Shown here: piece after piece, positions 29,891 through 64,000 of the stretch
Numbering within the stretch: the stretch's first letter is position 1
Layout of the letters: each line of letters begins with the position of its first letter
Assembly (NCBI RefSeq): GCF_004210375.1
Contig: NC_134830.1
Coordinates: 8,060,001 to 8,124,000, forward strand
DNA from: Tachypleus tridentatus
Taxonomy: Eukaryota > Arthropoda > Merostomata > Xiphosura > Limulidae
Reading direction: 5' to 3'
DNA length: 64,000 nucleotides
Made by a program: the position numbers and the translations under genes
The notes under the pieces: generated by a model
The model's database searches: none
Told to the model about the DNA's origin: nothing
Seen by the model: the letters and a program-made list of their open reading frames with translations, nothing else

Positions 29891-29894
29891 ATTT

Positions 29895-33842: not shown

Positions 33843-35876
33843 TTGGTGGTAGAGCCAAATAAAGACAGTCCATCCTCTCATGATGATGATGACAGTAACT
33901 CTTGGAAAGACAGTCCATCCTCTGATGATGATGACAGTATCTCTTGGAAAGACAGTCCATCCTCTGATGATGGTGATGACAGTAACTCTTGGAAAGACAG
34001 TCCATCCTCTGATGATGATGACAGTATCTCTTGGAAAGACAGTCCATCCTCTGATGATGATGATGACAGTATCTCTTGGAAAGACAGTCCATCCTCTGAT
34101 GATGATGACAGTATCTCTTGGAAAGACAGTCCATCCTCTGATGATGATGACAGTAACTCTAGGAAAGACACTCCATCCTCTCATGATGATGATGACAGTA
34201 ACTCTTGGAAAGACAGTTCATCCTCTGATGATGATGACAGTAACTCTTGGAAAGACAGTCCATCCTCTGATGATGATGATGACAGCAACTCTTGGAAAGA
34301 CAGTCCATCCTCTCATGATGATGATGATGACAGTAACTCTTGGAAAGACAGTCCATCCTCTCATGGTGATGATGACAGTAACTCTTGGAAAGACAGTCCA
34401 TCCTCTGATGATGATGACAGTATCTCTTGGAAAGACAGTTCATCCTCTGATGATGATGACGATGACAGTAACTCTTGGAAAGACAGTCCATCCTCTGATG
34501 ATGGTGATGACAGCAACTCTTGGAAAGACAGTCCATTCTCTGATGATGATGATGACAGTATCTCTTGGAAAGACAGTCCATCCTCTGATGATGATGACAG
34601 TATCTCTTGGAAAGACAGTCCATCCTCTGATGATGATGACAGTAACTCTTGGAAAGACAGTCCATCCTCTGATGATGATGACAGTATCTCTTGGAAAGAC
34701 AGTCCATCCTCTGATGATGATGATGACAGTAACTCTTGAAAAGACAGTCCATCCTCTGATGATGATGATGATGACAGTAACTCTTGGAAAGACAGTCCAT
34801 CCTCTGATGATGGTGATGACAGTAACTCTTGGAAAGACAGTCCATCCTCTGATGATGGTGATGACAGTAACTCTTGGAAAGACAGTCCATCCTCTGATGA
34901 TGATGACAGTATCTCTTGGAAAGACAGTCCATCCTCTGATGATGATGACAGTAACTCTAGGAAAGACAGTCCATCCTCTCATGATGATGATGACAGTAAC
35001 TCTTGGAAAGACAGTCCATCCTCTGATTATGATGATGACAGCAACTCTTGGAAAGACAGTCCATCCTCTCATGATGATGATGATGACAGTAACTCTTGGA
35101 AAGACAGTCCATCCTCTCATGATGATGATGATGACAGTAACTCTTGGAAAGACAGTCCATCCTCTCATGATGATGATGACAGCAACTCTTGGAAAGACAG
35201 TCCATCCTCTCATGATGATGATGATGACAGTAACTCTTGGAAAGACAGTCCATCCTCTCATGATGATGATGACAGTAACTCTTGGAAAGACAGTCCATCC
35301 TCTGATGATGATGACAGTATCTCTTGGAAAGACAGTCCATCCTCTGATAATGATGACAGTAACTCTTGGAAAGACAGTCCATCCTCTGATGATGGTGATG
35401 ACAGTAACTCTTGGAAAGACAGTCCATCCTCTGATGATGGTGATGACAGTAACTCTTGGAAAGACAGTCCATCCTCTGATGATGATGACAGTATATCTTG
35501 GAAAGACAGTCCATCCTCTGATGATGATGACAGTAACTCTTGGAAAGACAGTCCATCTTCTGATGATGATGATGATGACAGTAACTCTTGGAAAGACAGT
35601 CCATCCTCTGATGATGGTGATGACAGCAACTCTTGGAAAGACAGTCCATCCTCTCATGATGATGATGACAGTATCTCTTTTGTGGATAGTGATGATAACA
35701 ATGATGGGGAGACAGAACAAACAACAAGTTTACAGTTAGGAAATTGTGATTACAACAACCTTACGACTCGCAGCTATATGTTGGCTGAAATGGAAATACA
35801 GAAAAGTCGTAAACCAGTTTATTATGTGGGCAAAGTGCTGTCAGAATTTGATAAAGATGGTGACTGTGAGGTATAA
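33843..35876 (+). pseudogene. Transposase linker and C-terminal domain, one long frame with a single stop
   Basis: A single reading frame of 678 codons runs from 33843 to 35876 with one nonsense codon (TGG to TGA at 34737-34739). It comprises about 41 copies of a 14-17-residue acidic unit (KDSPSSDDDDSNSW type) and then a non-repetitive tail, RSYMLAEMEIQKSRKPVYYV and GKVLSEFDKDGDCEV. The tail resembles the domain found at the C terminus of Tigger-like transposases ('...TKKTVxYYVGQILExDGDYEVKFLRK'). Downstream FLRKHRK continues past a stop at 35874. The acidic linker between DDE and C-terminal domain is normally short and Ser/Asp-rich; here it is hugely expanded. Confidence 0.75.
33862..35677. 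repeat. Acidic-linker minisatellite, about 41 units of 42-48 bp
   Basis: Unit: GACAGTAACTCTTGGAAAGA then CAGTCCATCCTCT and (GAT)n. Lengths of 42, 45 and 48 bp differ only by whole GAT triplets. Variants alternate AGTAAC/AGTATC and GATGAT/CATGAT/GATGGT. Higher-order blocks recur, for example 'GGT-GAT, GGT-GAT, short' around 34800 and again around 35390. Because no unit contains a stop in four of the six frames, long spurious frames exist on both strands. Confidence 0.97.
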
Positions 35877-36885
35877 TTTCTAAGAAAACATAGAAAGTTA
35901 GCAAATATGTTTTAAAACCGAGAGCTCAAGATAAGGAAACAGTCAGGAAAGACCGAATCAAACTAGTCATGCCAAAACCAGTGGCCAAAGGCACAAGGAA
36001 TGAACTAAACTTTCAAGTCAGTTTTGGAAATATCCTTGTTCGTTCAAAGTTAGAAAAGTTGATGTAGTTGACAAACATCCCGACAAAGTTATTTTTATTG
36101 AAATGTTTAATGGTGACAAAGTATAATATTAAAGTTTTATTGCAGCTACGTATGTTGTGTAACAGACAACGATAAGTTAGATGTAAATAAGCTGAGGAAA
36201 CTGTTGATTATTTTGTGTAACAAATATTGCCTTGGATTATTTACTTATAATTCTGTTTAATATTATTCCATTTATATTCTATCACAGTACCATGTTATTT
36301 ATAAGCATTATTTAATATGTTATGTCAGATGTGTTTATTCGTTTGCTTTATATACGTACAATTAGGATGTTCTCTATATTTTCATTCAGATAGTGTTTAT
36401 CAATATAACTCTGTATTGTGACGTTTCATTCCAAACCTGTTTACATTTATCTAATGGTATAATTACATGAGAATTACTTGTTCCTTTCAGATAATATGTC
36501 TTTACAAATAAACAGCAAATCCTTTATGATTACATGTACCTGGATATGGAGTAATTGTATTTTATGAAATCTTTTATGTTTATGTCTCATTTCTCCCTCA
36601 TAAGTTTCAGTTCACCCCAAAACTAAGCACCTTGTAAACTATGTAATAATTCCAAATATAAATATAAAATAATAATCATGAACATTTGCCCAATTTCAGA
36701 ATTTCCTAAAGTTTCTAATTCAAGTTAAACAATTGTCCATGTTTAATAGCTGGATCTTGACAAAGACAAAGAAAACAGACGTGTTCTACCCGCTCTCCCC
36801 TACAACTTTTTCCAAACTTTGAAATTTCTTTTACAAAATTTATACTAAATTACATTTACATCAGTGTTTTGTTTGCATCTAATGA

Positions 36886-36988
36886 GTCTCCGGATTTACA
36901 ACGCTAAAATCAGGGGTTCGATTCCCCTCGGTGGGCTGAGCAGATAGCCCTTTGTGGCTTTGCTATACGAAAAACACCCACACCCACA
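36886..36988 (+). mobile_element. SINE-2, 5'-truncated, 12-bp target duplication
   Basis: Begins GTCTCCGGATTTACAACGCT and has box B GGGGTTCGATTCCCC. Flanked by TGCATCTAATGA at 36874-36885 and 36989-37000. It stands 85 bases beyond the Tigger right end. An identical copy lies at 55099-55201. Confidence 0.93.
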
Positions 36989-37648
36989 TGCATCTAATGA
37001 AATTAAGTACATGTGCATTTAGGTAGTAAAGTGCGCGCGCATAAATATAGGACGGACAAAACTAAGTACTATTGCAATAGGTTACATTATTCCATTTCAC
37101 GATACTTTAAAAAACAATGACGCAATAAAGGTACATTCCACATGATTTTCCAAAACCACGTGGTTGAGTGACGATTTCGTAATTAGAAATTACTAAGAGT
37201 ATTGTTTTAACTTTTTTATGGTAAGTACTTAAAACCATGGATGCAAGCCTATGCAACTCATTAAATAATTAAGAACTTATTAAACAACCCCAGTGCCTCA
37301 CCACTAACACTGCCCATTGATGAAACCAGAAGTGACATATGAGGGGCACTTCCCCTTCAAGTGTGAAAATGGCTCCGATTAGCACTTGAGAGGTATTTCT
37401 ACTCAGGCTGTATTAACATATATCACAAATTAGGTCAAACAGTTGGGTCCACAGATGAATTGGGGGACCACGCAATATTAGTATTTTAATGCCCCCCCCC
37501 CAAAGCCTGTTGTGAAATGGTGCTCCCAAACGAGAGTAGCTTGAAACCGTCCAACACATAAGTGGATTGTTTAATTACTTTCAAGACATGTATGTTTATT
37601 TGTTTGTCTATAGTGTTTTACAAACGCTTATCCTATTCCAGATCTCAC

Positions 37649-37867
37649 CTTCGCCAATGCTACGTGTTCAAACTTGTCGAAAGCTAGGCTGGTTTCTTCC
37701 CCGGACTGACCACGATGTTGACCACGTAAAATGCGGGCAGCTGTGATAGTGGTCAGTCCCATTCCATCGCCAACAAATAAAATTATGTTTTGGCAACATT
37801 ATAATTCCGCTCATGTTTCAGGTTACGAAGAAGGTTTCCTTTGACTTCTGATACCAGTGCCATCTAT
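37649..37867 (-). CDS. Alp: Alkaline phosphatase exon 2, copy A (two 1-nt deletions)
   Basis: Acceptor TTTATAG|AT and donor AAG|GTGAGA are intact, but the exon has 219 nt instead of 221. Compared with copy B (55862-56082), one C is missing from the run at 37838-37839 and one T from the run at 37788-37791. Each deletion alone shifts the frame and causes an early stop; together they scramble the segment before GDGMG. The remaining frame would read DGMGLTTITAARILRGQHRG and then SLAFDKFEHVALAK. GDGMG supplies an Asp that binds both zinc and magnesium. Consensus errors in homopolymers are more likely than true loss, because all other exons are intact. Confidence 0.88.
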
Positions 37868-38015
37868 CTATAAAGAAGAAAACAAAAGTAACATCGATTA
37901 GTAGCTCCTTTACCAACTTTAATAAGCGCATGTAATAATAAACTGTAAACTTTTGTCAATGAAGTTAGAAAGAAAATTACTTTGAATCTTCAGATGATAA
38001 TTAATTTTAAAATTT

Positions 38016-38106
38016 CAGTCAACTTTTCGCCAATGATCAGGATTACTAGTACAAAAACGTGACTATTAGCGCTGATGAAGCCACAATGGCGAAACGTTGA
38101 CTGAAA
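38016..38106. repeat. Inverted repeat with hammerhead-like core
   Basis: TTTCAGTCAAC-TTTTCGCCA (38016-38035) is the near-perfect reverse complement of TGGCGAAACGTTGACTGAAA (38087-38106). The right arm sits in CTGATGA (38072-38078), A, GCC-ACAAT-GGC stem, GAAA (38091-38094), CGTTGAC, again the order of a hammerhead core. AACGTT just after it could form the minimal palindromic stem III known from dimeric hammerheads. Copy B (56287) has lost one A of GAAA. Confidence 0.45.
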
Positions 38107-38439
38107 CAGAAAGTTATTATTATTTAATCCAAATTGTCTAAATATATCAAGTATGCATTATAAATTTTAAAAAAATTGCAACATAAAAAGGGACATAATT
38201 TTTATTATATTTCAAAGTGAAAATTATTTAATTTCTACAACACATTAATGAAAATTACATCGAACATCAAAAGACAAGTCAGTACGCCTAGCTTCAAAAC
38301 ACGTAAAAAATTAATCAAATATTGTATTAAACAATAACTGACATCTGTCTAAGTTTTCTAGAGGTACTGGGAGAGATTGAATAAAATGTTTAAAATGTTC
38401 TAAATTTGGGAACGCTGCTAAACAAGTTTTTACACATGT

Positions 38440-38765
38440 GAGTTTTTTTGTTTCAGAATTTCGTGAAAAGATACACAAGGTTTATCTGCACATAATTGTC
38501 TCTAATTTCTCTGCGACAGGCCAGAAGGAAGGAAGTTTGTCGTCAGTATTCACTGTTAGTTCTTGAATTAATCTTGTTTGATCGAATAGTGGGATCTTTA
38601 CTGTTATAACGTGAACATCACAGCCAGGGTGAATATACTATCATTCCCATCCAACTGTGCCTCAGAAAACTGGGATTAAACACAAATTTTGAGGCAAAAG
38701 GGACACGAACCAAGAATCATCAGATATATAATCTGAGCATGATAATCAGTAAGCCACGTCCAGTC
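38440..38765 (-). mobile_element. Decayed SINE-1
   Basis: Reverse remnant recognised by TTTCAGAATTTCGTGAAAAG, GAATAGTGGGATCTTTAC and AATCTGAGCATGATAATCAG. Roughly 60-70% like the other copies and so among the oldest. Confidence 0.6.
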
Positions 38766-38884
38766 CAACATATTTAACAATGGCGTCATTTTTGAAGCAA
38801 TGGATGTGTTTCCATAGTTACGATTTTGCTGTCTGTCTCGATAATTACGGTTCTTCTGTTTGTCACCAAGACACTATCATGCAG

Positions 38885-40620
38885 CCAGCGACTCTTAGAC
38901 ATTCTAAACCTTGTTATAATCCCCAAATCAATCCTACCTTTCTACCGGAACTTTTCTACACACTCCACTGTGTCTAGTGACTATTTCCCTATCTCTTTTA
39001 CTCTACAAATTAACGGACAAGCCATATATCCCTGTAGCTCCCAACAATTACATAATAATCGACTGAAACACTTTTAACACTTCACTACACACCTTAGACA
39101 CTTACCTAATTCATAACTAAGGCATCATTTAAAGGTCACCAAGATATTTGGGTAGAAAAGGTCACGAAAGTCATTACTCAAGCAACACAAAAGACAACCC
39201 CCACAAAATAAAGTGGCAATACACTACAACACTGGAAACTTTACCCAGAAAAAAATAACTGAATTAAAAAAAACGCCCAAGAAGAAGTTTCATGGAAAGC
39301 ACGAGGCACATTATGAAACCACAAATAAACAGAATACACACACTATTTAACGGGAGAAAAATAGTACTGGCTAAAAATGTTGTTAACAAACTAAATTACT
39401 TTCAAAATTAACCACAATAATTTTAGAATCAATTTAAATCTTTAACATCTGAGAGAAACAACAACCAGTTATATCATCATATTAAATATAACAACATCAC
39501 CACCAAAACAGACACTGATAAGGTGGAATTAACAACCGAATACTTCCAAAATTATTTTTCAAACATCGAATCTCCTCTACAATCATAACAAAAAGTTCAC
39601 AGTCATATAACCTCTCAACCCAAACTATTCAGCCCGATATTCCACACGTCCATTGAATCACAAACATCCCTTACTTATTCAATACAAACGTCCCTGCAGG
39701 TTTACCTGAAACAAATCTTAGGTCACTAAAAAATTCGGCTTCTAGCCATGGTGGTATTTGTAACATAATATTAAAAAAACAGAAAAACGGATCGAACAAC
39801 TCATTAACTGCATTTAGCTAACATTATGAATCTATTACTTTTATCAGGCTATAGTCTGGAATCTTGGGGAAAATCTGTCGTCACAAATTTTTCTATATTT
39901 ATTGCAAATAATCCCAATCCGTAATCTTCAGACCGATTAGTCTAAGAAGCTGTTTAGGTAAGTTACTTGAACGCATAGTGTCACAAAAACTACTGGTTTA
40001 TTATGATAACAACAACCTGATACCAAACATCCAACTATCGTCCTGTAAAAGCATAGAAACTGTAGACCATCGAACCAGACTAACTGAATCTCTTCACAAT
40101 GCATTTAACAGTAACCAAGCTGTTCGATCTGTATTCCTAGACGTAAAAAAAGTATTTCACTGTGACTGGCACAATGTTGTTAGACACCACTTATAAAATA
40201 TGAAAGTGAATAACACAGTACTTAGATGGACATCTAATTTCCTTAGTGATCAAGCAACCACAGTTAAAGCTAACAACACCATCTCGAAATCATTTGACAT
40301 TACTGCTATATAAATAAAATACGGGTGTCAGGTCATCTTCAACATGTCTAGTACAATCCAAAACAAACTATAACCTCAACAGTCCTTAAATTAGCCCTAA
40401 GACTTCTTAAGTTTGTTCGTACAAGTTACTTACATAAAACACACAATATACAAACAATAAACGAAAAATTAAGAAAATTAGCATTCAAATACAACAGTAA
40501 ATCAGAGAAAAGAAACCCCCTAACTGCCACCCTCTACACAATGATAAGTATCTCGTACGAAACGTCTCCGTACAATGAATTATTTGCTATGAAATAAACT
40601 TGAATTCACCCTAAAGTCGT
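38885..40620 (+). mobile_element. LINE (Jockey/CR1-type) remnant
   Basis: Pieces of a non-LTR retrotransposon in several frames: endonuclease end (LVIIPKSILPFYRNFSTHST, VSSDYFPISFTLQIN), reverse transcriptase (RPISLRSCLGKLLERIVSQK; SVFLDVKKVFHCDWHN with the first catalytic Asp), then a deletion that removes the YADD region, and the C-terminal thumb (LALRLLKFVRTSYLHK, NEKLRKLAFKYNSKSEKRNP). Many stops. Copy at 57090-58825. Confidence 0.85.
39978..40193 (+). pseudogene. LINE reverse transcriptase fragment
   Basis: Longest open piece of the LINE. It runs from SQKLLVYYDNNNLIPNIQLS (fingers) to FLDVKKVFHCDWHNVVRHHL, where motif A of the palm (usually FLDxxKAFDxVWH) has kept the first Asp but lost the second. 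The catalytic second motif is deleted downstream, so it cannot be active. Confidence 0.85.
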
Positions 40621-40894
40621 TTCTAACCCATTCAAGTTGTTCCATTTTTAGTTCTTGGCACAGGACAGGTAGATTTTTCGGCTTCCGTTTGTGAAAGTGG
40701 GTTTTCTCGGGGATCTACCCTTCCACCCATAAACAAATTCCCAGACACGCTTGGATTTTTTTTATGCTAATCATAGCATTGGATTTATAAATCCCAACTA
40801 TTATGTTTACAGAGTGTTTACCAAAATATGCTTTGTACAAACACTGTCCTGTTATTCCTTCTCATCAGTTTTGGTCTTCTCTATGCCTTCTGGA

Positions 40895-41075
40895 CTCCAG
40901 AACATCTCGCATATCTCCATACCAACTGGACTTCAGAACATCTGGCATATCTCCATACCAACTGGACTCCAGAACATCTGGCATATCTCCATACCAACTG
41001 GACTTCAGAACATCTGGCATATCTCCATACCAACTGGACTTCAGAACATCTGGCATGTATCCATACCAACCAAAT
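40895..41075 (+). repeat. 36-bp tandem repeat, five units
   Basis: Unit CATCTGGCATATCTCCATAC then CAACTGGACTTCAGAA, alternating CTCCAGAA and CTTCAGAA. The multiple-of-three period leaves several open frames, without sign of selection. Copy at 59097-59282. Confidence 0.95.
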
Positions 41076-41237
41076 TATCAGATATAAATTAACTCTGAGA
41101 TTTCATTTAGCCTCACCATCTTACCAAAATTTTCTTTTTCGTGAGCAGGATATTAATATTCCTAATCACTTCAGTTTAGGAAAGTTTATCTAAAAACTAA
41201 ATACCTGCAACTGTTTCTTCGAGGTTTTTTTCCACAG

Positions 41238-41507
41238 TTACGTTTTTGCTGTTTGTCTTCATATATACGGTTTTGCTATTTGTCTCTATAGTTGCAGTTT
41301 TGCTGTTTGTCTCAGCAGTTACTGTTTTGCTGTCTGTCTCCATAGTTACGATTTTGCTGTTTGTCTCCATAGTTACAATTTTGCTGTCTGTCTCCATAGT
41401 TACAGTTGTGCTGTTTGTCTCAGCAGTTGCTGTTTTGCTGTTTGTCTCCATAGTTACAGTTTTGCTACTTATCTCCACAGTTACGATTTTGCTGTTTGTC
41501 TCCATAG
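41238..41507 (+). repeat. 27-30-bp tandem repeat, about 10 units
   Basis: Unit TTTTGCTGTTTGTCTCCATA then GTTACAG. Two similar units (TCCATAGTTACGATTTTGCT) occur at 38810-38870, just before the LINE, suggesting that the LINE and neighbouring sequence interrupted an older, larger array. Copy at 59444-59714. Confidence 0.93.
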
Positions 41508-41583
41508 TTACATCTTTTCTAGCGTATAGGCCTGATTTAAATTATCTGTCTACACAAGAGATACGGAACATTTCTTTTACATA

Positions 41584-41732
41584 AAAAGGAAATTATTTGC
41601 TAGGTAGTCATCTGAGAAGTAAAAGGAAATTAGGTGCTAGGTAGTCATCTGAGAAGTAAAAGGAAATTAGGTGCTAGGTAGTCATCTGAGAAGTAAAAGG
41701 AAATTAGGTGCTAGGTAGTCATCTGAGAAGTC
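41584..41732 (+). repeat. 37-bp tandem repeat, four units
   Basis: Unit AAAAGGAAATTAGGTGCTAG then GTAGTCATCTGAGAAGT. Nearly identical units. Copy at 59788-59935 with three single-base or short deletions. Confidence 0.95.
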
Positions 41733-42654
41733 AAACAGGGTGAAATAATATGAAAGGTATCCTCATAACCACGGTAAGGTTTTGTTTAAGAGAATCACAA
41801 GGGGTGGGGTATCGTGTGGTACCTCAGTATGAATTCAAAAAAGGTTTCACACTGAACGTCGCTTTCCGCCTCTTTCTGTGACCTACAGTCACAGCCAAAG
41901 ATGACCGCATGTTCATTGTTAACTGGAAAATGATTCAATGCAGATGGCGACCACGTGCGTTTGTTTAATTTGAGGAACCCTCAAGTTCCAACGGCGTGTG
42001 CGACTAAAAAAAAAAACAACTAACAGTTTCTTTCAATAACATCGTAATAGAAATTCACCACTGTTTACATTGTTGGGGTGGGGTCGGTCAAAGAAGCACG
42101 AGACCCAGCAGACCCAGACCTCGCTAGAAGTCACACTGGAGCATGCAATTAAACCGAGGTCAAGCCTATTATCATGTAGTGATAATAATAATAAACAAAT
42201 TTCACAAGACCTTAAAGTCTTCTCTACATTTCCACTTCTGATACGATAACATGGAGAACAAGTTATGAAAAACACTAGCACTTGTGTAATTCTTCATCTA
42301 AAAAGTTTTAAATTGAAGTCACCAACAAATGTTTAAAAAAACATGAGGGGCGTTTCTCGTGCGTGTTTGTATGTATTGGAATAAAACTGGTACACAGCTA
42401 TTATGTGTATAACTATGTCTCTTTTTTACAAAGGGTAATTAAATACAGAGAATTTTTTATTGTTGAAGGTGTTAGTTTTGAAATCTGGGTCGTGTTTATT
42501 TAAAACATTAATTATAATAGATGTTTTATGAACATAAGGTGATTTTTCGGGAGGTGCCAATACGCACATGATAACTCTGATATAAACTAACACCCTCGAG
42601 TACACGATGTTTAAATAGTATCAGGTGTATAAACAGCAGAAAACATGAAGTGTA

Positions 42655-44215
42655 TTTTACAGCTTCAAAGAAATCTGGAGTTGTTAACAGACATGGCATA
42701 GCTTCTGGAGTTGATAACACAGGACTAGCTTAGCTTCTAGTGTTGATAATGTAGAAGTTGCATACCTTTTGGAGTTGTTAACATAAAAGGGAAATACCTT
42801 CAGTAGTTGATAACATAAAGGTGATGTAACCATAAGAGTTGGTTATATACAAGGGGCATAACTTTTAGTCTTGATACTATAAAAGTGGCATAGCTTCTAG
42901 TGTTAATGATGTAAAAGTGACATAGCTTCTAGTGTTAATAATATAGAATTGGCATAACTTCTAGTGTTAATAATATAGAATTGGCATAGATTCTAGTGTT
43001 AATAATATAGAATTGGCATAGATTCTAGTGTTAATAATATAGAATTGGCATAACTTCTAGTGTTAATAATATAGAATTGGCATAACTTCTAGTGTTAATA
43101 ATATAGAATTGGCATAGATTCTAGTGTTAATAATATAGAATTGGCATAACTTCTAGTGTTAATAATATAGAATTGGCATAACTTCTAGTGTTAATAATAT
43201 AGAATTGGCATAACTTCTAGTGTTAATAATATAGAATTGGCATAGATTCTAGTGTTAATAATATAGAATTGGCATAGATTCTAGTGTTAATAATATAGAA
43301 TTGGCATAACTTCTAGTGTTAATAATATAGAATTGGCATAACTTCTAGTGTTAATAATATAGAATTGGTATAACTTATAGTGTTAATAATATAGAATTGG
43401 TATAACTTCTGGAGTAGATAACAGAAGAGAACAAACCTCAGTAGTTGATAAAATACAGGTTACGTAACCTTAGGAATTGGTAACATGGAAATGACGTGGT
43501 TTCTGGAGTTGGTAACATAGAATTGGTATAGCTCCTGGAGTTGATCACATACATAGTGGTGACATTACGTCAGGAGTTGATAACATAGAGTTGACACTAG
43601 TAGTTGATAACATAAAAGTGGCATAGCTTCTAGTGTTGGTAACATAAAAGTGGCATAGCTTCTAGTGTTGGTAACGTAAAGTGGCATAGCTTCTAGTGTT
43701 GGTAACATAAAAGTGGCATAGCTTCTAGTGTTGGTAACGTAGTGATGAAATAAATAGAAGTTGATAACACAAAATTACATAAGTTCTGGAGTTGATGACA
43801 TAGTGGTGACATAACGTTAGGAGTTGATAACATAGACGTGGTTTGGTTTGAATATCGCGCAAGTCTACTTGAGGGCTATCTGCTCTAGCCGTCCCTAATT
43901 TAGCAGTGTAAGGCTAGAGGGAAGGCAGCTCGTCATCACCACCCACCGCCAACTCTTGGGATATGCTTTTACCAACGAATAGTGGGATTGATTGTAACAT
44001 TATAACGCTCCCACCATTGAAAGGGCGAGCATAGTTGGTGTGACACGGATTCGAACCCGTGACCCTCAGATTACGAGTCGAGTGTCTTAACTATCTGGCC
44101 ACGCCGGCTAACATAGAGGTGATATTAGGAGTTGATAACACAGAGGTGACATAGCGCTAGGAATTGGTAACATGTGAGTGACATAACTTTAGGAGTTGAT
44201 ATCATAGAGTGACGT
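42655..44215. repeat. 32-bp minisatellite, about 40 units, with homogenised core
   Basis: Unit TTCTAGTGTTAATAATATAG then AATTGGCATAAC in the core (about 42890-43415, some 16 units nearly identical, alternating GCATAACTT and GCATAGATT). Flanking units are diverged versions (GGAGTTGATAACATAAAAGT) that continue on both sides. A SINE-1 (43837-44108) is inserted in the right flank. Copy at 60855-62430. Confidence 0.93.
43837..44108 (-). mobile_element. SINE-1 inside the 32-bp array
   Basis: Reverse full-length copy; TAACATAGA at 43828-43836 and 44109-44117 forms a 9-bp target duplication derived from the array unit. Counterpart at 62042-62315. Confidence 0.92.
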
Positions 44216-44296
44216 AAAGATTTTTTTCAATCCACTTTCATGTAACTTAAAATGACATTTTGCCCAACGTAGTTCAGAAACATTTTGTGAATCTGA

Positions 44297-44566
44297 TTTG
44301 TTTGTTTGTTTGGGAATTTCGCACAAAGCTACTCGAGGGCTATCTGTGCTAGCCGTCCCTAATTTAGCAGTGTAAGACTAGAGGGAAGGCAGCTAGTCAT
44401 CACCACCCACCGCCAACTCTTAGGCTACTCTTTACCAACGAATAGTGGGATTGACCGTCACATTATACACCCCCCACGGCTGGGAGGGCGAGCATGTTTA
44501 GCGCGACGCGGGCGCGAACCCGCGAATTACGAGTCGCACGCCTTACGCGCTAGGCCATGCCGGGCC
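44297..44566 (-). mobile_element. SINE-1 with 12-bp target duplication
   Basis: Flanked by TTGTGAATCTGA at 44285-44296 and 44567-44578. Compared with the counterpart at 62505-62781 it lacks ACCCTCGG before ATTACGAGTC, one of the larger differences between the two duplicate segments. Confidence 0.95.
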
Positions 44567-45634
44567 TTGTGAATCTGAGATGGAATACTCGGGTAAGTCG
44601 TAACTAACATGTATATATAGTAGAATGTGGTTTAACACATCGACCTTGCTTCCCTGTTCCACGCGCCAGGTGACATGCTGCTATTTCCATCCTAACTCAA
44701 TGTGTTATCTAGAAATAATAAATACCATAACTACTTGACATCAGTAAATCATAATACAGAAATATCTGACGGTTTCCAGCACTGGCATTCAGTGTATATA
44801 TAAATACGAGTTGGAGCAAGATATACTCAGCTACACTCTGTCTGTTTTTCTATCTAATTGTTTTCTTTATTTTTTCTAGATCGGTTATGAATTTTGGAAT
44901 AAGTTGAGATTTTGAATAATGCTTCTAAGTTCTATTTATTTAATAAACTGTTGTTGTTTATTTGAAGATACATTAAGGGTTACTTATGAATAATTAGTGA
45001 CCAAATATCAACATCTTCTGATCAAAACAAAGTTGCTGCGTAGATCAGAACTTGAGATTAGTTGAGTAAATAAACTTACTGAGCCAGTTTGTTATAACAC
45101 TCTGTCTAGGAGCATGTAATAGCTTAAGGCGTTTAATGATTATAATGGGACTACCGATGTTCATTGGCTGGTAATCTTCGCTGCTATCGATATCCCTGGC
45201 CGTAATCCTATTAATGCCTCAAAAGATCAGCTTGCTTAAAAGATTTGGGTTGATTCTAAATTTATATTCAAGAGTGATACTTTAAAGTAATTATCATAAT
45301 AAATAGAAAATAATGAATAATTAATACTGTTGTGAACTATATTTTCAATTTTGTAATTTAGATGTTAGATAGAGGGCGCATGACATTAAGATCAAATAAG
45401 TTTAAAACATAGTCGTAAAATATCTGGAATATTTGTGAATATTAGTGATCGAGAGATTCTGCAGAATGTATAGAGAGAAAAGAAGAAAGGTTACTTTATG
45501 AACACGAGAAATACTGAGTTAGTTTTCAGTTGCCAGTGACGTATGTATTTCTCAGTTTGTTCAGTGATTGTAAAATTATTGAAGGTATTGAGGTCGATGT
45601 ATTAGGTACTAGACCGATTAGCCGTGAACTTGTA

Positions 45635-45873: not shown

Positions 45874-45910
45874 TAGAAATGTAATAAGCAACTTGGAAAA
45901 TGGTACTTAC

Positions 45911-47660: not shown

Positions 47661-47662
47661 TG

Positions 47663-51815: not shown

Positions 51816-51825
51816 ACCAACCAAA

Positions 51826-52968: not shown

Positions 52969-53468
52969 NNNNNNNNNNNNNNNNNNNNNNNNNNNNNNNN
53001 NNNNNNNNNNNNNNNNNNNNNNNNNNNNNNNNNNNNNNNNNNNNNNNNNNNNNNNNNNNNNNNNNNNNNNNNNNNNNNNNNNNNNNNNNNNNNNNNNNNN
53101 NNNNNNNNNNNNNNNNNNNNNNNNNNNNNNNNNNNNNNNNNNNNNNNNNNNNNNNNNNNNNNNNNNNNNNNNNNNNNNNNNNNNNNNNNNNNNNNNNNNN
53201 NNNNNNNNNNNNNNNNNNNNNNNNNNNNNNNNNNNNNNNNNNNNNNNNNNNNNNNNNNNNNNNNNNNNNNNNNNNNNNNNNNNNNNNNNNNNNNNNNNNN
53301 NNNNNNNNNNNNNNNNNNNNNNNNNNNNNNNNNNNNNNNNNNNNNNNNNNNNNNNNNNNNNNNNNNNNNNNNNNNNNNNNNNNNNNNNNNNNNNNNNNNN
53401 NNNNNNNNNNNNNNNNNNNNNNNNNNNNNNNNNNNNNNNNNNNNNNNNNNNNNNNNNNNNNNNNNNNN
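52969..53468. other. Assembly gap, 500 N
   Basis: Exactly 500 undetermined bases, a conventional scaffold-gap size, so the real distance is unknown. The left side is unique sequence; the right side starts inside the acidic-linker minisatellite. Confidence 1.
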
Positions 53469-55014
53469 GATGATGATGACAGTAACTCTTGGAAAGACAG
53501 TCCATCCTCTGATGATGATGACAGTAACTCTTGGAAAGACAGTCCATCCTCTGATGATGATGATGACAGTAACTCTTGGAAAGACAGTCCATCCTCTGAT
53601 GATGATGATGACAGTAACTCTTGGAAAGACAGTCCATCCTCTGATGATGGTGATGACAGTAACTCTTGGAAGACAGTCCATCCTCTGATGATGATGACAG
53701 TATATCTTGAGACAGTCCATCCTCTGATGATTGACAGTAACTCTTGGAAAGACAGTCCATCTCTGATGATGATGATGATGACAGTAACTCTTGGAAAGAC
53801 AGTCCATCCTCTGATGATGGTGATGACAGCAACTCTTGATAAGACAGTCCATCCTCTCATGATGATGAGATGACAGTATCTCTCTTTTTGTGGATGAGTG
53901 ATGATAACAATGATGGGAGAGACAACAAACAACAAGTTTACAGTTAGAAAATTGTGATTACAACAACTACAGTCGCAGCTATATGTTGGCTGAAATGGAA
54001 AATTACAGAAAAGTCGTAAACCAGTTTATTAGCGTGGGCAAAGTGCTGTCAGAATTTGATAAAGATGGTGACTGTGAGGTATAATTTCTAAGAAAACATA
54101 GAAAGTTAGCAAATATGTTTTAAAACCGAGAGCTCAAGATAAGGAAACAGTCAGGAAAGACCGAAGATCCAAACTCAGATCATGCCTTGACCATGTGGCC
54201 AAAGGCACAAGGAATGAACTAAACTTTCAAGTCAGTTTTGGAAATATCCTTGTTCGTTCAAAGTTAGAAAAGTTGATGTAGTTGACAAACATCCCGACAA
54301 AGTTATTTTATTGAAATGTTTAATGGTGACAAAGTATATAATATTAAAGTTTTTATTGCAGCTACGTATGTTGTGTAACAGACAACGATAAGTTAGATGT
54401 AAATAAGCTGAGGAAACTGTTGATTATTTTGTGTAACAAATATTGCCTTGGATTATTTACTTATAATTCTGTTTTATTATTCCATTTATATTCTATCACA
54501 GTACCATGTTATTTATAAGCATTATTTAATATGTTATGTCAGATGTGTTTATTCGTTTGCTTTATATACGTACAATTAGGATGTTCTCTATATTTTCATT
54601 CAGATAGTGTTTATCAATATAACTCTGTATTGTGACGTTTCATTCCAAACCTGTTTACATTTATCTAATGGTATAATTACATGAGAATTACTTGTTCCTT
54701 TCAGATAATATGTCTTTACAAATAAACAGCAAATCCTTTATGATTACATGTACCTGGATATGGAGTAATTGTATTTTTATGAAATCCTTTATGTTTATGT
54801 CTCATTTCTCACTCATAAGTTTCAGTTCACCCCAAAACTAAGCACCTTGTAAACTATGTAATAATTCCAAATATAAATATAAAATAATAATCATGAACAT
54901 TTGCCCAATTTCAGAATTTCCTAAAGTTTCTAATTCAAGTTAAACAATTGTCCATGTTTAATAGCTGGATCTTGACAAAGACAAAGAAAACAGACGTGTT
55001 CTACCCGCTCTCCC
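53469..55014 (+). mobile_element. Tigger element, 3' part (copy B)
   Basis: Starts within the acidic-linker array (nine units visible, several with frame-shifting base losses), then the C-terminal domain with extra indels (GAAATGGAAAATTACAGAAA) and the right inverted end CTACCCGCTCTCCC, followed by TA at 55015-55016. One C fewer than copy A at the terminus. Confidence 0.93.
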
Positions 55015-55098
55015 TACAACTTTTCCAAACTTTGAAATTTCTTTTACAAAATTTATACTAAATTACATTTACATCAGTGTTTTGTTTGCATCTAATGA

Positions 55099-55201
55099 GT
55101 CTCCGGATTTACAACGCTAAAATCAGGGGTTCGATTCCCCTCGGTGGGCTGAGCAGATAGCCCTTTGTGGCTTTGCTATACGAAAAACACCCACACCCAC
55201 A
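55099..55201 (+). mobile_element. SINE-2 (copy B of 36886-36988)
   Basis: Same truncation point and the same TGCATCTAATGA target duplication (55087-55098 and 55202-55213) as copy A, proving that the duplication postdates this insertion. Confidence 0.95.
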
Positions 55202-55861
55202 TGCATCTAATGAAATTAAGTACATGTGCATTTAGGTAGTAAAGTGCGCGCGCATAAATATAGGACGGACAAAACTAAGTACTATTGCAATAGGTTACAT
55301 TATTCCATTTCACGATACTTTAAAAAACAATGACGCAATAAAGGTACATTCCACATGATTTTCCAAAACCACGTGGTTGAGTGACGATTTCGTAATTAGA
55401 AATTACTAAGAGTATTGTTTTAACTTTTTTATGGTAAGTACTTAAAACCATGGATGCAAGCCTATGCAACTCATTAAATAATTAAGAACTTATTAAACAA
55501 CCCCAGTGCCTCACCACTAACACTGCCCATTGATGAAACTTGAAGTGACATATGAGGGGCACTTCCCCTTCAAGTTTGAAAATGGCTCCGATTAGCACTT
55601 GAGAGGTATTTCTACTCAGGCTGTATTAACATATATCACAAATTAGGTCAAACAGTTGGGTCCACAGATGAATTGGGGGACCACGCAATATTAGTATTTT
55701 AATGCCCCCCCCCCAAAGCCTGTTGTGAAATGGTGCTCCCAAACGAGAGTAGCTTGAAACCGTCCAACACATAAGTGGATTGTTTAATTACTTTCAAGAC
55801 ATGTATGTTTATTTGTTTGTCTATAGTGTTTTACAAACGCTTATCCTATTCCAGATCTCAC

Positions 55862-56082
55862 CTTCGCCAATGCTACGTGTTCAAACTTGTCGAAAGCTAG
55901 GCTGGTTTCTTCCCCGGACTGACCACGATGTTGACCACGTAAAATGCGGGCAGCTGTGATAGTGGTCAGTCCCATTCCATCGCCAACAAATAAAATTATG
56001 TTTTTGGCAACATTATAATTTCGCTCATGTTTCAGGTTACGAAGAAGGTTTCCCTTTGACTTCTGATACCAGTGCCATCTAT
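55862..56082 (-). CDS. Alp: Alkaline phosphatase exon 2, copy B (intact)
   Basis: 221 nt. The acceptor is TTTATAG|AT (phase 1) and the donor is AAG|GTGAGA (phase 0). Open throughout: RWHWYQKSKGNLLRNLKHER, NYNVAKNIILFVGDGMG and TAARILRGQHRG, ending DKFEHVALAK. Matches the N-terminal part of the mature enzyme: the helix before VAKN, then the metal-binding GDGMG. As placed, it lies upstream of exon 1 of the gene at 46013, so in this order it cannot belong to that transcript; it would pair with an exon 1 beyond the right edge. Confidence 0.93.
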
Positions 56083-56649
56083 CTATAAAAGAAGAAAACA
56101 AAAGTAACATCGATTAGTAGCTCCTTTACCAACTTTAATAAGCGCATGTAATAATAAACTGTAAACTTTGTCAATGAAGTTAGAAAGAAAATTACTTTGA
56201 ATCTTCAGATGATAATTAATTTTAAAATTTCAGTCAACTTTTCGCCAATGATCAGGATTACTAGTACAAAAACGTGACTATTAGCGCTGATGAAGCCACA
56301 ATGGCGAACGTTGACTGAAACAGAAAGTTATTATTATTTAATCCAAATTGTCTAAATATATCAAGTATGCATTATAAATTTTAAAAAAATTGCAACATAA
56401 AAAGGGACATAATTTTTATTATATTTCAAAGTGAAAATTATTTAATTTCTACAACACATTAATGAAAATTACATCGAACATCAAAAGACAAGTCAGTAGG
56501 CCTAGCTTCAAAACACGTAAAAATTAATCAAATATTGTATTAAACAATAACTGACATCTGTCTAAGTTTTCTAGAGGTACTGAGAGATTGAATAAAATGT
56601 TTAAAATGTTCTAAATTTAGAACGCTGCTAAACAAGTTTTACACATGTG

Positions 56650-56975
56650 AGTTTTTTTGTTTCAGAATTTCGTGAAAAGATACACAAGGTTTATCTGCAC
56701 ATAATTGTCTCTAATTTCTCTGCGACAGGCCAGAAGGAAGGAAGTTTGTCGTCAGTATTCACTGTTAGTTCTTGAATTAATCTTGTTTGATCGAATAGTG
56801 GGATCTTTACTGTTATAACGTGAACATCACAGCCAGGGTGAATATACTATCATTCCCATCCAACTGTGCCTCAGAAAACTGGGATTAAACACAAATTTTG
56901 AGGCAAAGGGACACGAACCAAGAATCATCAGATATATAATCTGAGCATGATAATCAGTAAGCCACGTCCAGTCCA
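56650..56975 (-). mobile_element. Decayed SINE-1 (copy B of 38440-38765)
   Basis: Same diverged element as in copy A, with a one-base loss in GAGGCAAAGGGACACG. Confidence 0.6.
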
Positions 56976-57089
56976 ACATATTTAACAATGGCGTCATTTT
57001 TGAAGCAATGGATGTGTTTCCATAGTTACGATTTTGCTGTCTGTCTCGATAATTACGGTTCTTCTGTTTGTCACCAAGACACTATCATG

Positions 57090-58825
57090 CAGCCAGCGAC
57101 TCTTAGACATTCTAAACCTTGTTATAATCCCCAAATCAATCCTACCTTTCTACCGGAACTTTTCTACACACTCCACTGTGTCTAGTGACTATTTCCCTAT
57201 CTCTTTTACTCTACAAATTAACGGACAAGCCATATATCCCTGTAGCTCCCAACAATTACATAATAATCGACTGAAACACTTTTAACACTTCACTACACAC
57301 CTTAGACACTTACCTAATTCATAACTAAGGCATCATTTAAAGGTCACCAAGATATTTGGGTAGAAAAGGTCACGAAAGTCATTACTCAAGCAACACAAAA
57401 GACAACCCCCACAAAATAAAGTGGCAATACACTACAACACTGGAAACTTTACCCAGAAAAAATAACTGAATTAAAAACGCCCAAGAAGAAGTTTCATGGA
57501 AAGCACAGAGGCACATATGAAACCACAAATAAACAGAATACACACACTATTTAACGGGAGAAAAATAGTACTGGCTAAAATGTTGTTAACAAACTAAGTT
57601 ACTTTCAAAATTAACCACAATAATTTTAGAATCAATTTAAATCTTTAACATCTGAGAGAAACAACAACCAGTTATATCATCATATTAAATATAACAACAT
57701 CACCACCAAAACAGACACTGATAAGGTGGAATTAACAACCGAATACTTCCAAAATTATTTTTCAAACATCGAATCTCCTCTACAATCATAACAAAAAGTT
57801 CACAGTCATATAACCTCTCAACCCAAACTATTCAGCCCGATATTCCACACGTCCATTGAATCACAAACATCCCTTACTTATTCAATACAAACGTCCCTGC
57901 AGGTTTACCTGAAACAAATCTTAGGTCACTAAAAAATTCGGCTTCTAGCCATGGTGGTATTTGTAACATAATATTAAAAAAAAACAGAAAAACGGATCGA
58001 ACAACTCATTAACTGCATTTAGCTAACATTATGAATCTATTACTTTTATCAGGCTATAGTCTGGAATCTTGGGGAAAATCTGTCGTCACAAATTTTTCTA
58101 TATTTAGTGCAAATAATCCCAATCCGTAATCTTCAGACCGATTAGTCTAAGAAGCTGTTTAGGTAAGTTACTTGAACGCATAGTGTCACAAAAACTACTG
58201 GTTTATTATGATAACAACAACCTGATACCAAACATCCAACTATCGTCCTGTAAAAGCATAGAAACTGTAGACCATCGAACCAGACTAACTGAATCTCTTC
58301 ACAATGCATTTAACAGTAACCAAGCTGTTCGATCTGTATTCCTAGACGTAAAAAAAGTATTTCACTGTGACTGGCACAATGTTGTTAGACACCACTTATA
58401 AAATATGAAAGTGAATAACACAGTACTTAGATGGACATCTAATTTCCTTAGTGATCAAGCAACCACAGTTAAAAGCTAACAACACCATCTCGAAATCATT
58501 TGACATTACTGCTATATAAATAAAATACGGGTGTCAGGTCATCTTCAACATGTCTAGTACAATCCAAAACAAACTATAACCTCAACAGTCCTTAAATTAG
58601 CCCTAAGACTTCTTAAGTTTGTTCGTACAAGTTACTTACATAAAACACACAATATACAAACAATAAACGAAAAATTAAGAAAATTAGCATTCAAATACAA
58701 CAGTAAATCAGAGAAAAGAAACCCCCTAACTGCCACCCTCTACACAATGACAAGTATCTCGTACGAAACGTCTCCGTACAATGAATTATTTGCTATGAAA
58801 TAAACTTGAATTCACCCTAAAGTCG
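57090..58825 (+). mobile_element. LINE remnant (copy B)
   Basis: Same pieces as 38885-40620 including the endonuclease end, the reverse transcriptase fragment at 58183-58398 and the C-terminal thumb. Carries the same internal deletion, with small additional length differences in A runs. Confidence 0.85.
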
Positions 58826-59096
58826 TTTCTAACCCATTCAAGTTGTTCCATTTTTAGTTCTTGGCACAGGACAGGTAGATTTTTCGGCTTCCGTTTGTGA
58901 AAGTGGGTTTTCTCGGGGATCTACCCTTCCACCCATAAACAAATTCCCAGACACGCTTGGATTTTTTTTATGCTAATCATAGCATTGGATTTATAAATCC
59001 CAACTATTATGTTTACAGAGTGGTTACCAAAATATGCTTTGTACAAACACTGTCCTGTTATTCCTTCTCATCAGTTTTGGTCTTCTCTATGCCTTC

Positions 59097-59282
59097 TGGA
59101 CTCCAGAACATCTGGCATATCTCCATACCAACTGGACTTCAGAACATCTGGCATATCTCCATACCAACTGGACTCCAGAACATCTGGCATATCTCCATAC
59201 CAACTGGACTTCAGAACATCTGGCATATCTCCATACCAACTGGACTTCAGAACATCTGGCATGTATCCATACCAACCAAATT
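59097..59282 (+). repeat. 36-bp tandem repeat (copy B)
   Basis: Five units as at 40895-41075. The first unit reads CATCTGGCATAT where copy A has CATCTCGCATAT. Confidence 0.95.
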
Positions 59283-59443
59283 ATCAGATATAAATTAACT
59301 CTGAGATTTCATTTAGCCTCACCATCTTACCAAAATTTTCTTTTTCGTGAGCAGGATATTAATATTCCTAATCACTTCAGTTTAGGAAAGTTTATCTAAA
59401 AACTAAATACCTGCAACGGTTTCTTCGAGGTTTTTTTCCACAG

Positions 59444-59714
59444 TTACGTTTTTGCTGTTTGTCTTCATATATACGGTTTTGCTATTTGTCTCTATAGTTG
59501 CAGTTTTGCTGTTTGTCTCAGCAGTTACTGTTTTGCTGTCTGTCTCCATAGTTACGATTTTGCTGTTTGTCTCCATAGTTACAATTTTGCTGTCTGTCTC
59601 CATAGTTACAGTTGTGCTGTTTGTCTCAGCAGTTGCTGTTTTGCTGTTTGTCTCCATAGTTACAGTTTTGCTACTTATCTCCACAGTTACGATTTTGCTG
59701 TTTGTCTCCATAGT
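59444..59714 (+). repeat. 27-30-bp tandem repeat (copy B)
   Basis: Unit order and variants are the same as at 41238-41507. Confidence 0.93.
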
Positions 59715-59787
59715 TACATCTTTTCTAGCGTATAGGCCTGATTTAAATTATCTGTCTACACAGAGATACGGAACATTTCTTTTACAT

Positions 59788-59935
59788 AGGAAATTATTTG
59801 CTAGGTAGTCATCTGAGAAGTAAAAGGAAATTAGGTGCTAGGTAGTCATCTAGAAGTAAAGGAAATTAGGTGCTAGGTAGTCATCTGAGAAGTAAAAGGA
59901 AATTAGGTGCTAGGTAGTCATCTGAGAAGTCAAAC
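59788..59935 (+). repeat. 37-bp tandem repeat (copy B)
   Basis: Four units as at 41584-41732, with short losses (ATCTAGAAGTAAAGG for ATCTGAGAAGTAAAAGG). Confidence 0.93.
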
Positions 59936-60854
59936 AGGGTGAAATAATATGAAAGGTATCCTCATAACCACGGTAAGGTTTTGTTTAAGAGAATCACAAG
60001 GGGTGGGGTATCGTGTGGTACCTCAGTATGAATTCAAAAAAGGTTTCACACTGAACGTCGCTTTCCGCCTCTTTCTGTGACCTACAGTCACAGCCAAAGA
60101 TGACCGCATGTTCATTGTTAACTGGAAAATGATTCAATGCAGATGGCGACCACGTGCGTTTGTTTAATTTGAGGAACCCTCAAGTTCCAACGGCGTGTGC
60201 GACTAAAAAAAAAAACAACTAACAGTTTCTTTCAATAACATCGTAATAGAAATTCACCACTGTTTACATTGTTGGGGTGGGGTCGGTCAAAGAAGCACGA
60301 GACCCAGCAGACCCAGACCTCGCTAGAAGTCACACTGGAGCATGCAATTAAACCGAGGTCAAGCCTATTATCATGTAGTGATAATAATAATAAACAAATT
60401 TCACAAGACCTTAAAGTCTTCTCTACATTTCCACTTCTGATACGATAACATGGAGAACAAGTTATGAAAAACACTAGCACTTGTGTAATTCTTCATCTAA
60501 AAAAGTTTTAAACTGAAGTCACCAACAAATGTTTAAAAAATATGAGGGGGCGTTTCTCGTGCGTGTTTGTATGTATTGGAATAAAAGTGGTACACAGCTA
60601 TTATGTGTATAACTATGTCTCTTTTTTACAAAGGGTAATTAAATACAGAGAATTTTTTTATTGTTGAAGGTGTTAGTTTTGAAATCTGGGTCGTGTTTAT
60701 TTAAAACATTAATTATAATAGATGTTTTATGAACATAGGGTGATTTTTCGGGAGGTGCCAATACGCACATGATAACTCTGATATAAACTAACACCCTCGA
60801 GTACACGATGTTTAAATAGTATCAGGTGTATAAACAGCAGAAAACATGAAGTGT

Positions 60855-62430
60855 ATTTTACAGCTTCAAAGAAATCTGGAGTTGTTAACAGACATGGCAT
60901 AGCTTCTGGAGTTGATAACACAGGACTAGCTTAGCTTCTAGTGTTGATAATGTAGAAGTTGCATACCTTTTGGAGTTGTTAACATAAAAGGGAAATACCT
61001 TCAGTAGTTGATAACATAAAGGTGATGTAACCATAAGAGTTGGTTATATACAAGGGGCATAACTTTTAGTCTTGATACTATAAAAGTGGCATAGCTTCTA
61101 GTGTTAATGATGTAAAAGTGACATAGCTTCTAGTGTTAATAATATAGAATTGGCATAACTTCTAGTGTTAATAATATAGAATTGGCATAGATTCTAGTGT
61201 TAATAATATAGAATTGGCATAGATTCTAGTGTTAATAATATAGAATTGGCATAACTTCTAGTGTTAATAATATAGAATTGGCATAACTTCTAGTGTTAAT
61301 AATATAGAATTGGCATAGATTCTAGTGTTAATAATATAGAATTGGCATAACTTCTAGTGTTAATAATATAGAATTGTCATAACTTCTAGTGTTAATAATA
61401 TAGAATTGGCATAACTTCTAGTGTTAATAATATAGAATTGGCATAGATTCTAGTGTTAATAATATAGAATTGGCATAGATTCTAGTGTTAATAATATAGA
61501 ATTGGCATAACTTCTAGTGTTAATAATATAGAATTGGCATAACTTCTAGTGTTAATAATATAGAATTGGTATAACTTATAGTGTTAATAATATAGAATTG
61601 GTATAACTTCTGGAGTAGATAACAGAAGAGAACAAACCTCAGTAGTTGATAAAATACAGGTTACGTAACCTTAGGAATTGGTAACATGGAAATGACGTGG
61701 TTTCTGGAGTTGGTAACATAGAATTGGTATAGCTCCTGGAGTTGATCACATACATAGTGGTGACATTACGTCAGGAGTTGATAACATAGAGTTGACACTA
61801 GTAGTTGATAACATAAAAGTGGCATAGCTTCTAGTGTTGGTAACATAAAAGTGGCATAGCTTCTAGTGTTGGTAACGTAAAAGTGGTATAGCTTCTAGTG
61901 TTGGTAACATAAAAGTGGCATAGCTTCTAGTGTTGGTAACGTAGTGATGAAATAAATTCAGAAGTTGATAACACAAAAATTACATAAGTTCTGGAGTTGA
62001 TGACATAGTGGTGACATAACGTCAGGAGTTGATAACATAGACGTGGTTTGGTTTGAATATCGCGCAAGTCTACTTGAGGGCTATCTGCTCTAGCCGTCCC
62101 TAATTTAGCAGTGTAAGGCTAGAGGGAAGGCAGCTAGTCATCACCACCCACCGCCAACTCTTGGGATATGCTTTTTACCAACGAATAGTGGGATTGATTG
62201 TAACATTATAACGCTCCCACCATTGAAAGGGCGAGCATAGTTGGTGTGACACGGATTCGAACCCGTGACCCTCAGATTACGAGTCGAGTGTCTTAACTAT
62301 CTGGCCACGCCGGGCTAACATGGAGGTGATATTAGGAGTTGATAACACAGAAGTGACATAGCGCTAGGAATTGGTAACATGCGAGTGACATAACTTTAGG
62401 AGTTGATATCATAGAGTGACGTAAAGATTT
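60855..62430. repeat. 32-bp minisatellite (copy B)
   Basis: The same number and order of unit variants as at 42655-44215 as far as I could follow. One core unit has GTCATAAC for GGCATAAC. Confidence 0.9.
62042..62315 (-). mobile_element. SINE-1 (copy B of 43837-44108)
   Basis: Retains the GCCGGGC head end where copy A has GCCGGC. Confidence 0.93.
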
Positions 62431-62504
62431 TTTCAATCCAGTTTCATGTAACTTAAAAATGACATTTTTGCCCAACGTAGTTCAGAAACATTTTGTGAAT
62501 CTGA

Positions 62505-62781
62505 TTTGTTTGTTTGTTTGGGAATTTCGCACAAAGCTAATCGAGGGCTATCTGTGCTAGCCGTCCCTAATTTAGCAGTGTAAGACTAGAGGGAAGGCAG
62601 CTAGTCATCACCACCCACCGCCAACTCTTAGGCTACTCTTTTACCAACGAATAGTGGAATTGACTGTCACATTATACACCCCCACGGCTGGGAGGGCGAG
62701 CATGTTTAGCGCGACGCGGGCGCGAACCCGCGACCCTCGGATTACGAGTCGCACGCCTTACGCGCTAGGCCATGCCGGGCC
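62505..62781 (-). mobile_element. SINE-1 (copy B of 44297-44566)
   Basis: Carries the complete GCGACCCTCGGATTACGAGT box-B region that is deleted in copy A. Confidence 0.95.
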
Positions 62782-63852
62782 TTGTGAATCTGAGATGGAA
62801 TACTCGGGCAAGTCGTAACTAACATGTATATATAGTAGAATGTGGTTTAACACATCGACCTTGCTTCCCTGTTCCACGCGCCAGGTGACATGCTGCTATT
62901 TCCATCCTAACTCAATGTGTTATCTAGAAATAATAAATACCATAACTACTTGACATCAGTAAATCATAATACAGAAATATCTGACGGTTTCCAGCACTGG
63001 CATTCAGTGTATATATAAATACGAGTTGGAGCAAGATATACTCAGCTACACTCTGTCTGTTTTTCTATCTAATTGTTTTCTTTATTTTTTCTAGATCGGT
63101 TATGAATTTTGGAATAAGTTGAGATTTTGAATAATGCTTCTAAGTTCTATTTATTTAATAAACTGTTGTTGTTTATTTGAAGATACATTAAGGGTTACTT
63201 ATGAATAATTAGTGACCAAATATCAACATCTTCTGATCAAAACAAAGTTGCTGCGTAGATCAGAACTTGAGATTAGTTGAGTAAATAAACTTACTGAGCC
63301 AGTTTGTTATAACACTCTGTCTAGGAGCATGTAATAGCTTAAGGCGTTTAATGATTATAATGGGACTACCGATGTTCATTGGCTGGTAATATTCGCTGTT
63401 ATCGACATCCCTGGCCGTAATCCTATTAATGCCTCAAAAAGATCAGCTTGCTTAAAAGATTTGGGTTGATTCTAAATTTATATTCAAGAGTGATACTTTA
63501 AAGTAATTATCATAATAAATAGAAAATAATGAATAATTAATACTGTTGTAAGCTATATTTTCAATTTTGTAATTTAGATGTTAGATAGAGGGCGCATGAC
63601 ATTAAGATCAAATAAGTTTAAAACATAGTCGTAAAATATCTGGAATGTTTGTGAATATTAGTGATCGAGAGATTCTGCGGAGTGTATAGAGAGAAAAAGA
63701 AGAAAGGTTACTTTATGAACACGAGAAATACTGAGTTAGTTTTTCAGTTGCCAGTGACGTATGTATTTCTCAGTTTGTTCAGTGATTGTAAAATTATTGA
63801 AGGTATTGAGGTCGATGTATTAGGTACTAGACCGATTAGCCGTGAACTTGTA

Positions 63853-64000
63853 CAGGGTGCTCAGAAAGTGACTGTGCAGTTTTATAATCATATTTTATTC
63901 AGTCTATTTCAAGTCAGCAACTGATAGCGGTGTTTAGAAACAAAATAAGAAGGATCCAGGCCTGTATTGATGCCAACGGGGGTCACTTTCAACATTGTTT
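63853..64000. mobile_element. Tc1/mariner-type MITE, left part (copy B, cut by window end)
   Basis: Begins after TA with CAGGGTGCTCAGAAAGTGAC, as at 45635; the right end lies outside the window. Confidence 0.85.

Follow-up and report, generated by a model that had tools for sequence, protein, structure and literature searches.

Introduction

Two kinds of false duplication, and a case that combines them, are described in the passages of Rhie et al. 2021 (PMC8081667) on which we draw. In the heterotype with a "flanking contigs" layout, the 5′ homozygous sequence is joined to one haplotype and the 3′ to the other; in the homotype, sequences that overlap where contigs meet end up as gapped tandem duplicates. 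The cited passages of Ko et al. 2022 (PMC9516828) recognise a false duplication by halved depth, by gaps that separate the copies, by reads that are discordant or spanned, and by one-copy k-mers. Here we analyse a direct copy at an alkaline phosphatase locus of Tachypleus tridentatus (assembly GCF_004210375.1; 2.167 Gb, 205 sequences). The window, meaning the whole stretch of 64,000 nucleotides that was analysed, is C6:8060001-8124000, C6 being NC_134830.1. The copy is very probably a false duplication produced by assembly and scaffolding, in which a homotype and a heterotype component are combined.

We use "contig" for the sequence between two 500-N gaps. Three such gaps lie in C6:7920001-8184000 (8036161-8036660, 8112969-8113468 and 8171637-8172136), so that assembly gaps separate the copies on one scaffold, as is typical of false duplication. 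The contig preceding the first gap, contig I, has its last base at C6:8036160; contigs A and B follow, and contig D, the next one after the third gap, starts inside a 59-bp tandem array. N runs are absent from the further stretches read, C6:8172137-8184000 and 8194001-8244000 (8184001-8194000 was not among them).

The locus resembles the heterotype of PMC8081667, as far as the cited passages describe it, in that one scaffold holds two gapped versions of a region, with one contig on the 5′ flank and the other on the 3′ flank. It differs in that the second version is spread over at least three contigs (A, B and D), with a break inside the 59-bp satellite. Likeness to the homotype of the same passages lies in a near-identical contig end and next contig start, an intervening gap and a consensus that is noisier where contig B starts; here, in contrast, the overlap is 17.7 kb long and contig A bears some bases of the other version. 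As in the false gene gains of PMC9516828, gene parts are doubled beside the gene across an assembly gap, but the cited part of that study uses read depth or k-mers, whereas our analysis uses the gap and sequence comparison alone. Most likely, this is a combined heterotype-plus-homotype false duplication of a kind already described, and the repeat is not a real genomic feature.

Overlap between contigs A and B

Copies A and B (Table 1) agree in order and orientation across a gap of exactly 500 N, as the original prediction had stated, with 98.61% identity over 10,572 columns (window 35262-45781 vs 53469-64000). The match halts at window 64000 because the window ends there. Beyond it, the two copies correspond over C6:8095262-8112966 and 8113469-8131179, at 98.9% over 17,768 columns (17.7 kb), which rules out a chance or low-complexity match as the source of the copy. 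This extended comparison covered the 80 longest matches of at least 300 columns, with self-matches at least 4 kb apart and the satellite at ~C6:8135881-8171637 masked. The match stops 2 bases short of contig A's final base and opens at contig B's first base; a duplicate shared between one contig's end and the beginning of its neighbour is the mark of a homotype overlap. The expectation that copy B begins within a hard repeat is also borne out, its start lying inside a 45-bp array.

The differences between the copies depart from what had been predicted. Aligned pairwise, the first 10.5 kb show, for B relative to A, 80 substitutions, 32 insertions and 25 deletions, so that substitutions are not few beside the 57 indels, although some of the 80 are alignment noise next to indels. 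The reported 8-base deletion is not found: the largest indel in this alignment and in the three-way one is of 7 bases, which B has and which both A and I lack. Over the whole overlap, 17,653 aligned bases contain 93 A/B substitutions (0.5%), and 56 of the 82 indels fall in homopolymers of at least three bases (29 A-private, 26 B-private, 1 unassigned). Among 18 bins, noise is highest in the opening kb of contig B, which takes in 16 of the 83 B-private substitutions and 18 of the 49 B-private indels, a pattern that a contig end would lead one to expect.

If window 35.2-52.97 kb had very recently undergone a genuine partial tandem duplication, two highly identical copies would likewise stand side by side in the same orientation. 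The breakpoints of that duplication, however, would need to fall on both edges of one 500-N gap, and the predominance of homopolymeric indels, the noisy first kb of contig B and three single-base deletions in A that disturb an exon open in B and I all argue against it. We regard such an event as scarcely credible, and an artefact rather than a genuine duplication is well supported by the comparisons made here.

A third copy in contig I

A genome search with a 2-kb query from copy B finds copies on C6 at 8113600, 8095390 and 7970699, the third lying 125 kb upstream, in contig I. Over its whole length, contig A runs collinear with I, from 8036661 (with 7911739) to 8112966 (with 7988294), in blocks of 91-98.6% identity. 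Contig B tracks contig I onward as far as the 76-bp and 59-bp tandem arrays, and contig D tracks it in blocks after its own 59-bp array (Table 1), with the last base of I matching inside D at 8230873. Contigs A and B were compared with I through plus-strand matches of at least 400 columns and 85% identity on the expected diagonals; the comparison of I with D used the 30 longest plus-strand matches of at least 400 columns.

Together, the collinear blocks and the end matches indicate a single region, spanning 124 kb in I, that is present in two versions, I and A-B-D. Each end of the homology that could be placed coincides with a contig end, A's first base on the left and I's last base on the right. 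The 5′ flank is attached to one version and the 3′ flank to the other, which is the flanking-contigs layout. No junction of a duplication within contiguous sequence, the mark of a true tandem, was found, the placeable edges all being contig ends. On the left, the matches of the 1,738 bp before 7911739 are, apart from the sequence itself, two local ones of partial length (84-91%) and short repeats of dispersed type (40 of 4,656 candidates scored). On the right, the first 1,672 of the 2,601 bp past the homology end have no second copy among the matches listed (40 of 6,316 candidates scored).

This layout suggests how the repeat may have arisen. A 17.7-kb stretch of one chromosome would have been assembled twice, as the 3′ end of A and the 5′ end of B, and left unmerged across the 500-N gap, giving the homotype overlap. 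Contigs I and A-B-D would represent the two homologous chromosomes at a single diploid locus, and these two versions of the 124-kb region would then stand in tandem as a heterotype duplication, with contig I taking the left flank into haplotype 1 and A-B-D taking haplotype 2 into the right flank.

Make-up of copy A

In 17,119 gap-free columns of a three-way comparison, private substitutions number 211 in I, 83 in B and only 7 in A (for 7 vs 83, p = 1e-17 under equality). Contig A is intermediate between the other two: at the 295 columns where B and I differ, it is like B at 211, like I at 83 and like neither at 1. Length differences of at least 15 bp set I apart in 13 cases out of 13, with A and B agreeing within 6 bases; these cluster in ~7 places, mostly tandem arrays, and are not 13 independent events. 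Over window 36262-52969 (16.7 kb), A switches between B-like and I-like states in 58 runs, against 101 expected by shuffling. That number of runs rules out one crossover as the origin of A, and some of the I-like clumps are local misalignment.

Assuming a roughly even rate, a near-empty private branch between two long ones points to a mixed consensus rather than to a three-allele tree. Contig A resembles a mosaic of B-like and I-like sequence, which could have come about through mixed-haplotype consensus or polishing. This offers a hint that can be read without sequencing reads: a copy that is intermediate between two others and has almost no substitutions of its own is likely to be a mixed consensus, not a third locus.

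The original prediction took the copy for a probable artefact and A and B for haplotypes. The former view stands, in that the A/B match joins a contig end to a contig start; the latter probably does not, as all 13 length differences are common to A and B. If A and B were nonetheless two haplotypes of one locus, contig I would be a true neighbouring paralogue 125 kb away. Their difference of 0.5% is plausible as heterozygosity, and the B-private changes are mostly transitions (50 of 83). Two alleles, however, should carry near-equal numbers of private substitutions rather than 7 and 83, and none of the length differences divides A from B. Contig I differs from A by merely ~0.23% over 30 1-kb bins (see below), and the I/A homology opens at a contig start. 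From the length differences and private substitutions, A and B as a haplotype pair were judged unlikely, and this reading as a whole seems to us very improbable. The better haplotype pair is contig I against contigs A-B-D, which extends beyond the window.

Divergence between the two versions

Substitutions between I and A were counted per 1-kb bin in 9 chosen alignable blocks, using bins with more than 600 aligned bases. The noisy first bin has 28, the next 30 bins have 68 and the following 21 have 314, corresponding to ~2.3 per kb and then ~15 per kb, with a dispersion index of 10 over 52 bins. The step-up falls near window 8000 and fits a near-homozygous stretch running into a heterozygous one, whereas a single duplication event, in the absence of gene conversion, should have left divergence even.

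An alternative would be that the ~124-kb tandem duplication (I vs A-B-D) is real and the A/B overlap alone false. There would then be two alkaline phosphatase genes, gene conversion would have been patchy and the 59-bp satellite would have grown from ~20 units in one copy to more than 500 in the other. Seven alkaline phosphatase exon matches in each version, the divergence of I from D and older paralogues on C10 and C19, which show earlier copying of the region, are in favour of this alternative. No junction lies within a contig, however, the left end being A's first base and the right end I's last base, and a step from ~2 to ~15 per kb inside contig A is unexpected from one event without gene conversion. 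We consider it unlikely.

Several observations nevertheless weigh against a false duplication of two homologues. Across five large blocks, I and D differ at 77 to 265 positions per block of 3,134 to 6,407 columns (2.5-6%), which is high for alleles. Within a local tandem array, 2 kb of contig I (8010001-8012000) match D at only 84% over 1.2 kb, and short pieces on C19 and C10 match the same 2 kb at 89%. The last 929 of the 2,601 bp of right flank match C6:6496690-6497619 at 96%, and C6:8234001-8237000 is repeated at C6:6.498-6.504 Mb (plus strand) and 6.383-6.386 Mb (minus strand) at 94-99%. The I-like sites of A are clumped, as gene conversion would also produce. Lastly, the transition share among B-private substitutions (50 of 83) is near that of I (133 of 211), so many of these changes look like true variants, not errors.

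Alkaline phosphatase exons

A profile search with PF00245 finds minus-strand exon matches of one alkaline phosphatase, seven in contig I, seven in contig A and the first only in contig B. Contig B thus lacks the duplicated 5′ half of the gene that had been proposed; what the assembly gains is a further set of exons the size of the gene, plus a single isolated exon. Profile positions ~334-370 are unmatched in both I and A, and the gene models are incomplete for that reason. The Pfam match in copy B lies in the frame at window 55841-56113, and three of the six further contig A exons were also matched in the Pfam scan of the window.

The first exon is frameshifted in A, whereas its frame is open in B and I. 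Single bases are missing from A alone at window 37788, within the exon match, and at 37838 and 37872, 5′ of it, with B and I keeping the bases; these losses shorten the open frame to 56 amino acids in A, compared with 90 in I and in B. The additional parts of the alkaline phosphatase gene are probably spurious. If left uncorrected, the scaffold shows the seven exon matches twice over, together with an isolated additional first exon and a surplus of ~140 kb, by which gene-family counts and recent-duplication scans on this assembly would be misled.

Paralogues and other duplicated pieces

C19:28505082-28510487 and C10:161338542-161342510 are older paralogues of the copy B region, at 90-95% to C6 and ~98% to each other over 1.2-1.6 kb. 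The C19 paralogue has the first alkaline phosphatase exon only and that on C10 (to 161350517) the later exons only; one of the two may be a misplaced or deleted version. Elsewhere on C10, alkaline phosphatase exon matches form an inverted pair at 192251416-192290820 (plus strand) and 192454020-192485225 (minus strand), with nearly equal scores and with stop numbers that are identical for two exons; the pair may be a further assembly duplication or a true inverted repeat. To the right of the homology, C6:8232572-8237000 recurs at C6:6496690-6503746 and C6:6383450-6386496, 1.7-1.9 Mb off, at 94-99%, with one piece inverted. C6 therefore holds further duplicated pieces, which are more artefacts or real repeats.

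Table 1. Features of the duplicated region (window positions unless prefixed C6)
Feature	Position	Strand	Remarks
Contig A	C6:8036661-8112968	+	window part 1..52968; second version of contig I 7911739-7988294, offset ~125 kb
Scaffold gap, exactly 500 N	52969..53468		separates copy A from copy B
Contig B	C6:8113469-8171636	+	follows gap after contig A
Copy A	35262..52968	+	3′ end of contig A, overlaps contig B start
Copy B	53469..64000	+	5′ start of contig B; overlap continues to C6:8131179
Largest A/B indel, 7 bases	62734..62740	+	bases in B, lacking in A and contig I (pairwise and three-way alignments)
D/I block	C6:8204193-8210309 with 7999357-8005440		94.6%
D/I block	C6:8210276-8214658		92.1%
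D/I block	C6:8213464-8218453		94.0%
D/I block	C6:8218760-8221880		96.1%
D/I block	C6:8223920-8230221 with 8022065-8028454		94.5%
D/I end block	C6:8227976-8230873 with 8033337-8036160 (I's last base)		86.7%, inside tandem repeats
Alkaline phosphatase exon, copy A	37643..37792	-	profile 2-51, frame disturbed
Same first exon, copy B	55856..56008	-	profile 1-51, frame open; sole alkaline phosphatase match of contig B
Other six exon matches, contig A	30453-30638, 28033-28194, 25164-25391, 24645-24797, 21987-22193, 20137-20295	-	profile search
45-bp minisatellite, ~41 units	33861-35679	+	contig B opens inside it
SINE	copy B ~55088-55213, copy A ~36875-37000	+	same 11-bp target duplication in both

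Repeats and mobile elements

Old short interspersed nuclear element (SINE) insertions had been said to be shared by the two copies with the same target duplications. The one checked does have the same 11-bp duplication in both, and the C19 paralogue is an empty site for it. Its age is another matter: at least 23 other places in the genome match it at 95-100% (40 of 998 candidates scored), and the family is probably young. Target duplications were also sought at the edges of insertions between I and A/B. Two repeats are plausible candidates, one of 11 bp where I has 270 bp more and one of 10 bp where it has 975 bp more, next to 7991309; five other edges, with 6-7-bp repeats or a 30-bp repeat within a tandem array, are uninformative on this point.

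The 59-bp array has ~20 units (1.2 kb) in contig I, at 7994681-7995867. It occupies ~32 kb of B (~8139557-8171636) and ~28 kb of D (8172137-8200179, with 8184001-8194000 not among the sequence read), and the B and D portions may overlap. If I and A-B-D are homologues, this array is a very large length polymorphism. The 45-bp array measures ~1.8 kb in contig A vs ~2.86 kb in contig I. On the plus strand of window 33837-35876, one frame of this minisatellite is open apart from one stop and encodes ~15-residue repeats rich in Ser and Asp; window 34740-35876 has no Pfam match.

A tRNA search of the window returned 0 genes. Two mobile-element remnants were recorded. A reverse transcriptase match at window 39912-40196 (plus strand) scores under the curated cut-off, and a Mos1-type helix-turn-helix match at window 22735-23208 (minus strand) sits in a ~1.36-kb piece that is present in contig A and absent from contig I.

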